A DNA stretch of 38,812 nt, taken from Hydrogenovibrio sp. SC-1. Lineage in GTDB: Bacteria; Pseudomonadota; Gammaproteobacteria; Thiomicrospirales; Thiomicrospiraceae. The translations under genes were made by a program, and so were the position numbers. The stretch is from assembly GCF_002848135.1 (NCBI RefSeq), contig NZ_PKGB01000019.1, positions 1 to 38,812 of the forward strand. Reading direction: 5' to 3'. Each line of letters begins with the position of its first letter. Within the stretch, counting starts at the first letter, position 1. Of the stretch, positions 794 through 5,559 are shown piece after piece. The notes under the pieces are model-generated. The model ran no database searches. It saw only the letters and a program-made list of their open reading frames with translations, and was not told where the DNA came from.

Positions 794-1090
794 TTATTTC
801 TTAATACAATTCAATATATTAGTTAGTTTTAGTCTGAAGAATTTATTTCTTTGCAAGCTCAAAACCCCTTTTTAGTTCCCCTATGTGTTGAGTAAACCTG
901 ATAATCAAACCTTCTGATAAGATAATATCTATCTGATTAACTATAGACTGCTAAGATTTTGACCTTAAAATAACCAGGCCTGTTCGTTTTGAGAATATTT
1001 TAGTCTCGATTATTGGGGACAGGATTTTTATAGCTGTTTTTGAGTGGCTGCGACTTTATTTATGAATGAACTTTGGGAGGCGATTCGGTT
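794..1090. other. Intergenic region between tRNA and sensor kinase
   Basis: No coding sequence is supported in this AT-rich stretch. It contains one copy of the repeated palindrome, CAGGCCTG at 975-982 within AACCAGGCCTGTT. A GGGAGG at 1075-1080 is the likely ribosome binding site of the downstream kinase. No convincing terminator follows the tRNA. Confidence 0.5.
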
Positions 1091-2509
1091 GTGTCGTTAA
1101 AATTTAAACTGATTATGGTTTTGATGGCGTTTGGTGTCACGATGCTGGTGGCAACGTTGTTGAGCGGCCAATATTTATTGAACCATACAATGGTTAAATA
1201 TATTGATAGGGCGGATGAGTATCGTTTGGATCGTTTGAAAAACAATCTCGAAGTTTATATGGATGAAGTTGGGTTATTTGATACCGAGTGGGTATCCGAG
1301 GATGTTTGGCAAAGGCTTTTGACGGTTTCTTATCGTATAGATTTAACGCACACATATATTCCAATGAATATCCTCTTGAAAAGAGAGTATCCCCAGTTGT
1401 TAAGATTTCATCCTGATGAATTTGAAACAAGAGTGAGTTTGTTAAATAGAGATGGAAAAGTGATTCGGGGTGATGGACTGGGTTCTAATGAAATGATGTC
1501 TGAGATTGTTGTTGACGGTGATATTGCTGGTTGGGTGGCTTACCCTCATCATCAGTCTTTGACGGAACAGGCTGATATTGAGTTTACTGAGCAACAATCT
1601 ACATTCTTTACTTGGGGCGCTGTTTTATTAACTTTCGTCATTGTTGTGTTATTACTGATATTTGTGAATCACTTTATGAAACCGATCCGCCAATTGACGC
1701 AAGGAATGCGTCAATTATCACAAGGAAAGTTTTCGACACGTTTGTCAATTTATCGCCAGGATGAGTTCGGTCAGTTGCAAAAAGACTTTAATCATTTGGC
1801 TGCCTGTTTGGAGAAAAGTCGTCATAGCCGAAATCAGTGGATTGCTGATATTTCGCATGAGTTACGCACGCCTTTAACCATCTTGCATGGTAGCTTGGAG
1901 GCGATTGAGGATGGTATTCGGCCTGCCAGTATTGAGAATCTGCATAAGATTCATGAAGAGGTCATGTTATTGAGCCGGCTAGTTGAGGATTTTTATCAGG
2001 TGGCATTAAATGATATTGGTGGTTTGAGTTATAAAATGCAGATATTAGATTTTCAGCAGCTGGTATCGAAATCAGTGGCGTCTATTGAGGGGGTTGCGCA
2101 GGAAAAAGGCTTGTTACTTTGTTATGACGTGAAAGAGGGAGACTATCGAATTAACGGTGATGAAGCCCGGCTCGGGCAGATGATTACCAATTTGCTGATT
2201 AACAGTTTGTCTTATACCGATGCGTATACGCATGCAGATGAAGCTGGACGGATTGAGGTGTTGCTTTATAATCAGTCTGGCAATGTGGTTTTAGAAATTA
2301 ATGACTCTGAGCCTGGGGTTGCTGAAGATGAGTTGAGTCAGCTTTTTGAGCGTTTATATCGTACAGAAATGTCTCGCAATAGACGTCACGGCGGAGCGGG
2401 TTTAGGCTTGTCAATCGTGCGTCAAATTGTTGAGGCGCATTCTGGCAAAATTACAGCACATTCTTCACGCTTGGGCGGATTGAGCTTGGTGATTGAGTTA
2501 CCCCTTTGA
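1091..2509 (+). CDS. baeS: Sensor histidine kinase, BaeS-like
   Basis: This inner-membrane sensor kinase should phosphorylate the response regulator encoded 17 bp downstream. I place the start at GTG 1091, because GGGAGG at 1075-1080 is then a ribosome binding site; the upstream TTG at 1073 would put that site inside the gene. The 472-residue protein has a first membrane segment near residues 6-28, a periplasmic sensor domain of about 140 residues, a second membrane segment near 170-193 and a HAMP linker. The HisKA H-box ISHELRTPL has the phospho-acceptor at His256. The ATPase domain shows the N box (NLLINSLSYT), a G1-like EINDSEPG and G2 GGAGLGLSIV. G1 has ND rather than the usual D-x-G core order, as in BaeS. 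The order kinase then regulator and the domain content suit BaeSR, an envelope-stress system. The stimulus cannot be read from the sequence. Confidence 0.85.
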   Translation: MSLKFKLIMVLMAFGVTMLVATLLSGQYLLNHTMVKYIDRADEYRLDRLKNNLEVYMDEVGLFDTEWVSEDVWQRLLTVSYRIDLTHTYIPMNILLKREYPQLLRFHPDEFETRVSLLNRDGKVIRGDGLGSNEMMSEIVVDGDIAGWVAYPHHQSLTEQADIEFTEQQSTFFTWGAVLLTFVIVVLLLIFVNHFMKPIRQLTQGMRQLSQGKFSTRLSIYRQDEFGQLQKDFNHLAACLEKSRHSRNQWIADISHELRTPLTILHGSLEAIEDGIRPASIENLHKIHEEVMLLSRLVEDFYQVALNDIGGLSYKMQILDFQQLVSKSVASIEGVAQEKGLLLCYDVKEGDYRINGDEARLGQMITNLLINSLSYTDAYTHADEAGRIEVLLYNQSGNVVLEINDSEPGVAEDELSQLFERLYRTEMSRNRRHGGAGLGLSIVRQIVEAHSGKITAHSSRLGGLSLVIELPL

Positions 2510-2526
2510 AATGAGAGCAAAATGGA

Positions 2527-3198
2527 ATGTCTTATAAAATTTTAATCGTTGAAGATGAAGAGAAGATTGCTGAAATCCTAAAAGATTATTTACATAACTG
2601 TGATTTTGAGACAGTTTGGATGCAATCGGGTATTGGGGTGGTCGATTGGGTAAAAGAGAATAGTGTTGATCTAGTGATGTTGGATATTATGCTACCTGGA
2701 GTCGACGGCTTGCAATTGTGCCAACAGATTCGTAATTTTAGCCAAGTGCCGATTATGTTGTTAACGGCAAAAGTTGAAGAAGCAGATCGAATTTTAGGGT
2801 TGGAGCAGGGCGCAGATGATTATCTTTGTAAGCCATTTAGTCCGAAGGAAATGGTGGCGCGTGTTAAAGCATTATTGCGTCGTAGCACAGCACTGAAAGA
2901 GCAGGCAAAAGGGTGGCAGTTGGATGCAGCTCGTTATAAGGTGATCTATGAAGGCCGTAGTGCCCAGCTTTCAATGGTCGAATTTGCCATTTTAAAACTG
3001 TTGAGCAGTTCTCCTGGGCAGGTTTATTCGCGAAACCAACTTATCCGTCAAATTTATCCTGATAACCGTATTGTTTCTGATAGGACGATTGATAGTCATA
3101 TCAAGAAATTGCGGCATAAATTGGCGGATGAGCTGTCCTCTAAGGAATTTATCTATTCAGTGTATGGGGTGGGTTACAAATTTGAAGTGCCTGAGTAA
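2527..3198 (+). CDS. baeR: DNA-binding response regulator, OmpR/PhoB family, BaeR-like
   Basis: This 223-residue protein has a receiver domain (about 1-118) and a winged-helix DNA-binding domain (about 128-222). The acidic pocket E9-D10-E11, phospho-acceptor Asp53 in MLDIMLPG, Thr80 and Lys102 in CKPF are all present. The effector ends with the family signature RTIDSHIKKLRHKL and VYGVGYKFE. It lies 17 bp after the kinase gene, so the two are an operon and a cognate pair. Sequence character is closest to BaeR. The nearest downstream elements are the GEMM-like RNA and prfC; whether it controls either is not evident. Confidence 0.88.
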   Translation: MSYKILIVEDEEKIAEILKDYLHNCDFETVWMQSGIGVVDWVKENSVDLVMLDIMLPGVDGLQLCQQIRNFSQVPIMLLTAKVEEADRILGLEQGADDYLCKPFSPKEMVARVKALLRRSTALKEQAKGWQLDAARYKVIYEGRSAQLSMVEFAILKLLSSSPGQVYSRNQLIRQIYPDNRIVSDRTIDSHIKKLRHKLADELSSKEFIYSVYGVGYKFEVPE

Positions 3199-3235
3199 CA
3201 TATATTAACTTTGCGTAATTTTTTTTAATTTAGGG
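3199..3235. other. Start of a 478-base protein-free region (3199-3676)
   Basis: The stretch from the end of the response regulator to prfC holds no credible protein gene. It contains a promoter (3236-3263), a probable c-di-GMP-I aptamer (3273-3354), further hairpins (3354-3509), an intrinsic terminator (3511-3543), a -10-like element (3611-3616) and a 22-bp palindrome (3625-3646). Each is listed separately. Confidence 0.6.
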
Positions 3236-3263
3236 TTGTACTTAACGATATTTTCGTTATAAT
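3236..3263 (+). promoter_or_regulatory. Strong sigma-70 promoter for the non-coding transcript
   Basis: TTGTAC at 3236-3241 and a consensus TATAAT at 3258-3263 are separated by 16 bp. Transcription should begin near 3270, directly before the GEMM-like aptamer. The fit to consensus is good, but the start site has not been measured. Confidence 0.7.
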
Positions 3264-3272
3264 TAATCTATC

Positions 3273-3354
3273 TTAATTTGATAAAGCTAAATTCGTCGCG
3301 AGGCGAAGACAGAAAGCCACGGATCTCTATGAGATGGCCGGGTTACCTTATTAA
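3273..3354 (+). ncRNA. Probable cyclic-di-GMP-I (GEMM) riboswitch aptamer
   Basis: Two adjacent hairpins have the GEMM-I layout. The first, TTCGTC/GGCGAA around a GCGA loop (3292-3307), has the GNRA tetraloop expected on P2. It is followed by GACAGAAAGCCACGG, close to the GEMM signature GACGCAAAGCC. The second hairpin is CGG-ATCTC/GAGAT-GG-CCG (3320-3340), followed by GGGTTACC, as on the 3' side of P3 and the closing region. An outer helix TTAAT/ATTAA (3273-3277 with 3350-3354) could close it. Differences from consensus (AG for GC in the signature, and a weak P1) lower certainty. The class is recognised from memory of the family and was not checked with a covariance model. Confidence 0.7.
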
Positions 3355-3510
3355 CGACCTTAACATTCGTTTTTATTGTACATTTTTGTTTTTCGATTCT
3401 TTAGATCTTATTTCTAGGTCGTATTTACTTTATTGAGTTTAGTCCTTGTTCAGAGTGCAACCGTTTTCTTCTTCCCTTTTCTGACGAGGGAACCACACAA
3501 GAAGAAAACT

Positions 3511-3543
3511 TTTAGGGCTTCAATAATGGAGCCCTTTTTTTTT
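3511..3543 (+). terminator. Strong intrinsic terminator ending the GEMM-headed transcript
   Basis: GGGCTTC (3515-3521) pairs with GGAGCCC (3528-3534) around an AATAAT loop, with one U-G wobble, and nine T residues follow (3535-3543). It would end transcription from the promoter at 3236-3263 more than 130 bp before prfC. Confidence 0.85.
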
Positions 3544-3610
3544 CTGGCAAAATGGATTTTATCTCCCAATGTATGGGGTGATTGAAGGTGTTTGGCAGGT
3601 GAATATCGAG

Positions 3611-3646
3611 TATAATGCCTCCAAAAATAGCCAGGCCTGGCTATTT
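3611..3646 (+). promoter_or_regulatory. Possible prfC promoter -10 box and adjacent 22-bp palindrome
   Basis: TATAAT at 3611-3616 is a full consensus -10 box, but no good -35 lies 16-18 bp upstream. Immediately after it is the perfect palindrome AAATAGCCAGG/CCTGGCTATTT (3625-3646) with the repeated ACCAGGCCTGGT-type core. It would fall at the 5' end of the prfC transcript. It lacks a following T-run, so it does not look like a simple terminator for plus-strand transcription. Confidence 0.4.
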
Positions 3647-3676
3647 CTAATCAATTTCGACTAAAAAGGCACGGAT

Positions 3677-5254
3677 ATGTCGCTTCAGCTGGAAACCAAT
3701 CGAAGACGCACCTTTGCAATCATTTCACACCCAGATGCGGGTAAAACCACCGTAACTGAGAAGTTGCTTCTTTACGGCGGAGCCATACAGATGGCGGGTG
3801 CGGTTAAAAGCCGAAAAACCGACCGTTCAGCCACGTCTGATTGGATGAAAATGGAGCAGGAGAGAGGTATCTCGGTTGCATCATCTGTTATGCAGTTCCC
3901 CTATAAAGACGTGATGATTAATTTATTGGATACGCCGGGGCATGAGGATTTCTCCGAGGATACCTATCGTACACTAACAGCGGTGGACTCAGCGTTAATG
4001 GTGATTGATGTCGCGAAAGGGGTTGAAGATCGTACCATTAAATTAATGGATGTTTGTCGTTTAAGAGATACCCCAATATTAACGTTTATCAATAAGTTGG
4101 ACCGAGAAGGGAAGGAGCCGATCGAGTTATTGGATGAAGTAGAGTCAGTTTTGAATATTCTCTGCGCCCCAATTACTTGGCCGATTGGTATGGGTAAACG
4201 CTTTAAAGGCATTTATCATTTGTTAAACGATACGATTCGTTTATTTGAGTCAGCTGATGGATTAAATGCGTCCGAAGGCGAATTAATTCAAGGTATCGAC
4301 AATCCTGAATTAGATCAAAAAATTGGATCCGCGATGGCTGATGAGTTGCGTGATGAAATTGAATTGGTCAAGGGTGCGAGTCATGCTTTTGATTTAGATG
4401 GATTTTTGAAAGGTGAGCTAACCCCTGTGTTTTTTGGTTCAGCGGTTAATAACTTTGGCTTGCAAGAGTTGTTGGATGGTTTTGCAAAATATGCGCCAGC
4501 CCCAGTGGGGAGAGAGGCTAAAGAACGGTTTGTTTCTGCAAACGAAGAAAAATTAACAGGGTTTGTATTTAAAATTCAAGCCAATATGGATCCAAAGCAC
4601 CGTGATAGAGTTGCTTTTATGCGAATCGTATCGGGGCAGTATCAGAAGGGCATGAGTTTAAAACATGTCCGTATCGGAAAGGATGTCAAAATTTCGAAGG
4701 CCATTACTTTTTTAGCCAATCGAAGGGATCAGGCTGAACAAGCCTTTCCAGGCGATATTATTGGCTTGCATAATCATGGCACCATTAAGATTGGGGATAC
4801 GTTTTCAGAAGATGAATCTCTAAAATTTATTGGTATTCCGAACTTTGCGCCAGAACTATTTCGTCGTGCACAATTGAAAGATCCAATGAAGATGAAAGCC
4901 TTGCAAAAAGGTCTGACGCAATTGTCAGAAGAAGGCGCAACCCAGTTGTTCCGGCCCGTTAGCAACAATGATTTGATTTTGGGTGCGGTAGGTGTTTTAC
5001 AGTTTGAAGTGGTTGCTCAGCGCTTAAAGGATGAATATAACGTTAGTTGTTTCTTTGAGCCAGTTAATGTCAGTACAGCCAGATGGGTTATTGGTTCTTC
5101 GACTGAAATTGAGAAGTTCTTGGCTAAAGTTAAAGATAACGTGGCCTATGATGCAGCCGATCAATTGGTCTATATTGCGCCTACACGAGTCAACTTAACA
5201 CTGACAGAAGAGAGGTGGCCGGATTTGCAGTTTGTAGCGATTCGGGAGCACTGA
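3677..5254 (+). CDS. prfC: Peptide chain release factor 3
   Basis: RF3 is a ribosome-dependent GTPase that recycles RF1 and RF2 from the ribosome after peptide release. The 525-residue length matches the E. coli protein (529). The GTPase domain is at the N-terminus, with the P-loop HPDAGKTT at residues 18-25, the switch II motif DTPGHEDF near 85-92 and NKLD near 139-142. The EF-Tu-like domain II and the RF3 C-terminal domain follow. It starts at ATG 3677 with only a weak AAGG ribosome binding site upstream. It stands alone and follows the riboswitch-terminator region. No truncation or odd residue is visible. Confidence 0.97.
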
Positions 5255-5415: not shown

Positions 5416-5559
5416 ATGAAACTTAAGCGCAGACAAGAAGATATTTTTCGGACACAAAAAAAGTCGGGTTCAAAGTTCTTGCTTGGCTTGATTGCTCTGT
5501 TGATTGGCGCCATCATCTATGTTTATATGGTTGACCCTAGCTTAATTAAGCTTTTATAA
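5416..5559 (+). CDS. Small single-pass membrane protein, 47 residues
   Basis: This short frame starts at ATG 5416 and ends at TAA 5557-5559. The protein begins with a charged segment, MKLKRRQEDIFRTQKKSG, followed by a hydrophobic helix of about 20 residues (FLLGLIALLIGAIIYVYMV) and a short tail. Positive charges before the helix predict the N-terminus in the cytoplasm. An AGG-containing ribosome binding site lies rather far upstream (about 11 bases). It follows prfC by 160 bp and ends only 9 bp before the convergent mgtE stop. I do not recognise a family; similar tiny membrane proteins are common in this bacterial group. That it is a real gene rests on the coherent charge and hydrophobicity pattern. 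Confidence 0.6.
   Translation: MKLKRRQEDIFRTQKKSGSKFLLGLIALLIGAIIYVYMVDPSLIKLL

Follow-up and report, generated by a model that had tools for sequence, protein, structure and literature searches.

To our knowledge, c-di-GMP riboswitches control the gene that lies behind them, with few exceptions. In Bdellovibrio bacteriovorus, merRNA is a c-di-GMP riboswitch within a 445-nt RNA that has no conserved downstream frame, and a role as a c-di-GMP store has been proposed for it (PMC3627812, in the text available). In EutX/Rli55 an aptamer is coupled to an element whose role is to sequester a response regulator, and transcription can end prematurely, depending on the ligand (PMC7602753, as set out in its accessible part). 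In a survey of antisense-acting riboswitches, the c-di-GMP family was the most prone to this arrangement, with 152 antisense against 2,554 sense cases (PMC9943018, available portion); because the neighbour of the RNA described here lies in the sense direction, that model is not directly applicable. Literature searches with thin coverage of subscription journals returned no paper that combines Hydrogenovibrio with riboswitch, one unrelated paper for Thiomicrospira and, among the papers listed, judged by title, none about the Hydrogenovibrio RNA. In a survey that covers 50 genomes, a term search of the accessible text turned up neither Hydrogenovibrio nor Thiomicrospira (PMC11109978).

The window analysed here is a 38,812-nt stretch of Hydrogenovibrio sp. 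SC-1 (contig NZ_PKGB01000019.1), whose genome (G000) comprises 2.45 Mb in 41 contigs. A sequence-only reading had proposed that a GEMM aptamer heads a gene-less, terminator-ended stretch in this window. Searches at the DNA level in 55 genomes, among them that of the window, together with family-wide searches, found this arrangement kept as a unit between a regulator gene and prfC in 7 of the 11 genomes of the genus (G000, G002, G003, G005, G006, G008 and G009). The closest relative is G003, G009 and G002 form a close pair, and G005 matches Hydrogenovibrio halophilus DSM 15072 exactly over 2000 bases.

The aptamer (3277-3351, + strand) was recognised by cmscan with two Rfam families. RF03167 (c-di-GMP-I-GGC) matched 3277-3351 at 61.5 bits against a cut-off of 59, and RF01051 matched 3276-3350 at 59.5 bits, 2 bits lower, against a cut-off of 35, so that the proposed GEMM-like aptamer passed the covariance-model check; the GNRA cap proposed for P2 is also there, as a GCGA loop at 3298-3301. 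In Vc2 the ligand-contact residues are named as G20, A47 and C92 (PMC4744006, accessible text). The equivalent positions are G, A and C in the window and in the six homologues. They were placed by alignment to the RF01051 consensus and by reference to the structure of such aptamers. The GGC of RF03167 presumably denotes a G replacing A47; at that point the RF03167 consensus reads GACGCGAA (G) and the window GACAGAAA (A), the RF01051 consensus has A, and the G is absent from all seven RNAs, which carry A. Because the contact positions carry the canonical G, A and C, the c-di-GMP-I-GGC label was not adopted despite the RF03167 score. By the usual computational standard the window aptamer is securely assigned to the canonical c-di-GMP-I class, and is predicted to bind the ligand. 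Among the homologues its identity to the window is 80-97%. It is the only c-di-GMP-I aptamer recognised in the G000 genome (for class II the scan covered the window), which holds 59 GGDEF matches in 2.45 Mb, apparently a very high density. With one recognisable c-di-GMP-I riboswitch against 59 GGDEF matches, this RNA may be the only c-di-GMP-I RNA output of the genome.

Upstream of the aptamer, a promoter-like pair was read from the sequence at 3236-3263 (+): TTGTAC at 3236-3241, 16 nt, and TATAAT at 3258-3263, from which transcription would be expected to start near 3270. By eye, a TTG-starting element stands 16-17 nt 5' of a TATAAT-like hexamer, at a similar distance, in all seven homologues. 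The pair had been called a strong promoter; the promoter-like pair itself stands, but the word strong does not, since the -35 hexamer matches at three of six positions only and the consensus promoter scan does not list the TTGTAC/TATAAT pair. At the other end, a terminator scan of 2800-4000 returned a single site, 3514-3535 plus a U tract (3514-3543, +; stem 3514-3522/3527-3535), against 1.2 sites expected in shuffled sequence, a count that is not significant by itself. This terminator had been claimed before, and a hairpin with U tract indeed recurs at the same place in all seven genomes and forms in all seven minimum-energy folds.

No conserved gene was found between the promoter-like pair and the terminator. 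This agrees with the earlier claim of a stretch without ribosome binding site and reading frame; plus-strand frames of 8-58 aa do occur in the seven transcripts, and a Shine-Dalgarno-like motif accompanies short TTG frames in G009 and G002, the only plus-strand frames to have one. On the minus strand, a TTG frame that begins in the invariant stretch has a Shine-Dalgarno-like motif in four of seven genomes (G008, G009, G002 and G006; 13-51 aa), but was rejected as its length and sequence diverge after the first residues. We also compared the locus with other GEMM loci of the family, of which 30 were taken and four at contig edges dropped. A terminator precedes the first frame of at least 70 aa in 3 of 5 loci of the present type and in 0 of 21 others; setting aside a 103-aa frame unique to G005 raises the first count to 4 of 5, and G003 failed since its hairpin exceeds the loop limit of the search. 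A stand-alone RNA is likely.

Between the linker and the terminator lies a conserved 3' module (3449-3509, +). It occurs once in each of the seven genomes, always 3' of the aptamer and directly 5' of the terminator, and its CAGAG lies 164-322 nt 3' of the aptamer GCUAAA in all of them. The exact module pattern was found in six genomes of the genus and the covariance model (R1) in seven, at 79-85 bits, G003 having one change in the pattern. With the same model, at E<0.1 and under stricter filters, no module was found in 51 other genomes of the family, the next best score being 21.6 bits (E 0.135). A shallow scan of the class at E<=0.01, with 13 candidates scored per listed genome, found none in 368 other genomes, the one positive in 369 being the window's own. 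Among 80 named prfC neighbourhoods, one, that of H. halophilus, carries it. In viral contigs there were three exact pattern matches, none of which was upheld by the model.

The module is 65-94% identical to the window among homologues. In the linker (3352-3448, +), where both sequence and length vary between species, identity is at the shuffled level in five of six comparisons, the exception being G003 (82% against 59%), and the stretch 3' of the terminator is 31-70% identical to the window in raw identity. The conservation that the sequence-only reading had wanted checked in the 3' part was found, in the module. Since the aptamer and the module are conserved and the linker is at the shuffled level, two separate blocks are kept and the sequence between them is not. 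Sequence comparison shows a feature that is real and conserved.

Within the module, a UUCAGAGUGCAAC on the 5' side and CCACAC are invariant in all genomes. P1 pairs 3463-3473 with 3499-3509, the 11-bp hairpin of the sequence-only reading being correct, and P2 pairs 3474-3478 with 3486-3490. The hairpin is one helix of the larger module, so that the conserved RNA exceeds aptamer plus hairpin. A fold of 3447-3540 reached -30.8 kcal/mol; 200 shuffles averaged -18.9 +/- 3.0 (z -3.9), and none of them was as good.

Covariation was assessed on six distinct module sequences among the seven genomes, all of one genus, and on an alignment that was fitted to the structure, because of which the test leans towards structure. 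Both sides have changed in 5 of the 13 pairs of P1 and P2 (shuffled mean 3.3; 36/500 shuffles reach 5). Cells changed on both sides number 9 against 3.9 in shuffles (0/500), and 88.2% of cells are paired against 79.1% (0/500), with the best value at slide 0; the pair types in the module helices showed no excess (8 against 8.0, 355/500). On the same alignment RNAalifold drew both helices and a weak 5' hairpin, with 20 pairs, 6 of them changed on both sides, and a covariation term of +0.9, a small penalty. The P2 loop UCUGA complements an upstream UCAGA (3480-3484 and 3450-3454); the match is perfect in six of the seven genomes, and G006 has one G-U pair. A pseudoknot between them is possible from this complementarity; because the pairing is nearly invariant, with the one G-U change, it comes without covariation proof. 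An alternative 5' hairpin, UUCAG/CUGAA, was seen by eye in G009, G002, G005 and G006 and is drawn in those four folds, and weakly by RNAalifold.

No Rfam family matched the module at its curated cut-off, the best being Phe_leader with 30.9 bits against 55. A Phe-type leader or hidden peptide was rejected, as this sub-threshold match rests on the shape of stem and terminator and no plus-strand frame is conserved. We regard the module as a candidate RNA domain with some covariation support that is absent from the RNA library searched.

Three pairings of the module with other sequences were considered. The CU-rich arm of the 3463-3473 stem had been suggested to pair with ribosome binding sites; this was abandoned, and with it an antisense seed in the arm, because the arm covaries and its sequence is not conserved, running from UUUUCUUCUU to CCCCCC across homologues with compensating changes in the partner. 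For the invariant 11-mer, the genomes of G000, G003, G006 and G008 hold no perfect complement other than the RNA itself, and further perfect complements were found in G005 (two) and in G009, G002, G004 and G001 (one each). Pairing of the module GCAAC with the aptamer GUUGC is, by eye, mismatched in G000, G008 and G005 and was rejected.

A helix that would compete with the aptamer was seen in the folds. In the window, the aptamer 5' strand (3275-3286, +) matches a strand shortly 5' of the module (3428-3439, +) over 12 bp, and only 10 of 2000 shuffles gave a helix as long. This test was restricted to a 24-nt stretch and devised after the helix had been seen; at the same place, 55 (G003), 7 (G008), 184 (G009) and 197 (G002) of 2000 shuffles were as long, and there was no signal in G005 (1828/2000) or G006 (642/2000). 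A duplex-energy test against linker shuffles, unrestricted in position, was favourable in G000, G003 and G006 (36, 8 and 18 of 500 as good) but not in G008, G009, G002 and G005 (111, 103, 282 and 258 of 500). In the unconstrained ensemble about 12 shared pairs were present in G000, 15 in G003, 11 in G008, 6 in G009, 8 in G002, about 0 in G005 and 2 in G006. The strand before the module reads UAUYRARUU in five genomes, and every variant pairs with the aptamer (A/G)AUUUGAUA. Found after the fact and uneven across genomes, the competing helix is suggestive as modelled.

We lean, if only slightly, towards a small RNA that stands alone and senses c-di-GMP, with its own promoter, an aptamer, a 3' output module, a terminator and an inferred switch. 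Transcription would start from its own promoter just 5' of the c-di-GMP-I aptamer and end at the intrinsic terminator, before the likely prfC promoter, giving a discrete transcript of about 275 nt in the window and a longer one in most relatives. The 5' aptamer would sense c-di-GMP, and the conserved 3' module would provide the output, its invariant stretches being the contact with a partner, either protein or RNA. We infer that without ligand the aptamer 5' strand can pair with the segment that shortly precedes the module, and that with c-di-GMP the aptamer folds and this strand is freed; this switch is the weakest step of the model. As the strand would be freed by the ligand, c-di-GMP would alter the presentation of the module or the stability of the RNA. 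More tentatively, and with real doubt, we suggest that the module is a structured RNA domain of a class not described before, either a pseudoknotted effector or a second aptamer, and that the whole acts as a c-di-GMP-gated trans-acting RNA controlling other RNAs or a protein and not a gene in cis.

The alternative that survives best, although we judge it unlikely, is a reservoir or sponge for c-di-GMP as proposed for merRNA, in which the aptamer would be active and the module would only stabilise the RNA or protect its 3' end. The layout of a c-di-GMP aptamer in a gene-less RNA is the same as in merRNA (PMC3627812, available text), the genome has its 59 GGDEF matches, and a compact 3' structure next to the terminator could shield the end. 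The invariant UUCAGAGUGCAAC and CCACAC, however, exceed the needs of a stabilising stem, and a sponge with one aptamer per RNA would have to be very abundant to be effective.

A very long attenuator of prfC, which the sequence-only reading had left as an option, is now decidedly unlikely. It would work like the two-terminator platform of Bacillus Bc1, the ligand altering termination at 3514-3543 and read-through reaching prfC. That gene (peptide chain release factor 3; 3677-5254, +; NF001964, 871 bits) is the next on the same strand in all seven genomes, starting 134 nt 3' of the U tract in the window, and long platforms with strong terminators are known (PMC11218506, accessible text). Against this, a TATAAT stands between the terminator and the prfC start in 7/7 genomes, 66-199 nt 5' of the ATG (3611-3616, +, in the window), probably as a separate prfC promoter although no clear -35 was identified. 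Moreover, prfC occurs without the upstream RNA and without the two-component system in G001, G004 and G010, the three sister genomes compared among the four of the genus that lack the RNA (the fourth is G007). Because of the TATAAT and these three genomes the attenuator is unlikely, and prfC does not appear to be transcribed only through the aptamer leader. Folds of the full 3' ends, computed at equilibrium with neither ligand nor pseudoknots, point the same way: the terminator forms in all seven RNAs, and its 5' arm is unpaired with upstream sequence save for one base in G008. We consider prfC a downstream neighbour and not the target.

Several features of the prfC surroundings were observed in passing. 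An inverted repeat, AGCCAGGCCTGGCT, lies at 3629-3642 (+) between the prfC TATAAT and the start and is a possible operator or hairpin. By eye, CCAGGCCTGG recurs 5' of prfC in G003, G008, G009 and G002 and 5' of a small frame in G005 and G006. In each of the ten genomes of the genus that were read by eye, prfC is followed by a small frame resembling a membrane protein (in the window 5416-5559, +, 47 aa, starting MKLKRR). Within the prfC-mgtE interval (loci L046, L047, L048, L051, L052 and L053) another c-di-GMP-I aptamer lies 5' of the small frame in G001, G004, G010, G002, G008 and G009, because of which the frame may encode a c-di-GMP-controlled protein; no aptamer was found before it in G000, G003, G005 and G006. 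Locus L055 (G008:C1:322500-330500) holds tandem c-di-GMP-I aptamers, at 3736-3814 and 3913-3991.

In another reading the 3' module would itself bind a ligand, as a second sensor domain; the RNA would then integrate c-di-GMP with another signal and act on an antisense product or on the terminator that it carries. The compact fold, the invariant residues, the possible pseudoknot and the position directly against the terminator would suit such a domain, but the module has no Rfam likeness (30.9 bits at best against 55), the terminator folds independently of it, and it is hard to see what a second input would bring where no gene is controlled; we hold this reading to be very unlikely.

Directly 5' of the RNA in all seven genomes is a two-component system (1073-3198, +; kinase 1073-2509, regulator 2527-3198) whose best matches are BaeS and BaeR, at scores under the curated cut-offs. 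Of the 11 genomes of the genus, all 7 with the RNA have a close orthologue of the regulator and none of the 4 without it does; those four have paralogues of at most 41%. An obligatory partnership of RNA and two-component system, perfect within the genus, was nevertheless rejected, because a regulator of 53-67% occurs without the module in 23 genomes of the family that lie outside the genus. The link between regulator and RNA may be merely positional. It is highly improbable that the RNA serves chiefly as 3' untranslated region and terminator for the two-component operon, with feedback on that operon. In favour of this reading, the regulator gene is just upstream in all seven genomes, the scan of 2800-4000 shows no terminator between the two, and the four RNA-less genomes are those without a close regulator orthologue. 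Against it, a promoter-like element separates regulator and RNA in 7/7, extra sequence of about 300 nt lies there in G002 and G009, and the module is missing from the 23 extra-genus genomes.

The extra sequence, seen by eye between regulator and RNA in G009 and G002 only (L047 and L048), has inverted-repeat arms and is perhaps a small mobile element. Three regulator flanks from sister genera were read by eye (L203, L206 and L207, in G029, G079 and G012). There a small secreted frame that looks Spy-like comes after the BaeR-like regulator, prfC is absent within 1.5 kb, and TTTGCA repeats 5' of the Spy-like frame are a possible regulator box.

Compared with known systems, the aptamer is like the c-di-GMP-I family RF01051 in fold, score and contact residues. 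It differs in what follows, as the usual members precede a gene and none of the 21 other family loci has the terminator before the first frame of at least 70 aa. Naming the riboswitch after the next gene would misfile the RNA as a prfC leader. Bc1 of Bacillus thuringiensis likewise has a c-di-GMP-I aptamer, a long platform and intrinsic terminators, but it leads into its own gene, mcpE, and no such conserved 3' module is described in the accessible text (PMC11218506). RCd5 of Clostridioides difficile is likewise listed as a regulatory RNA with a GEMM motif, of 398 nt (PMC3649979, as far as available).

The likeness to EutX/Rli55 lies in an aptamer combined with a separate effector element, in a trans-acting RNA and in the link to a two-component system (PMC7602753, accessible part). 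There, however, the aptamer binds vitamin B12 and the ligand stops transcription early so that the RNA is not made, whereas the window showed no terminator that would separate aptamer from module, the sole site in 2800-4000 following the module. By model match the Hydrogenovibrio regulator is OmpR/BaeR-like, and not of the ANTAR type that binds RNA.

The closest parallel is merRNA. In both cases a c-di-GMP riboswitch appears in a discrete RNA without a conserved downstream frame, for the Hydrogenovibrio RNA as judged from its sequence. They differ in that merRNA, of 445 nt, is not conserved outside Bdellovibrio according to its authors (PMC3627812, available text), whereas the Hydrogenovibrio RNA has a conserved 3' module against its terminator. 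As merRNA is the one stand-alone case that we found in the literature, and its function is only proposed, the Hydrogenovibrio RNA would be the second. This second case would be conserved over species and would offer a distinct output module for testing mechanism, making it answerable whether c-di-GMP can act via a trans-acting RNA.
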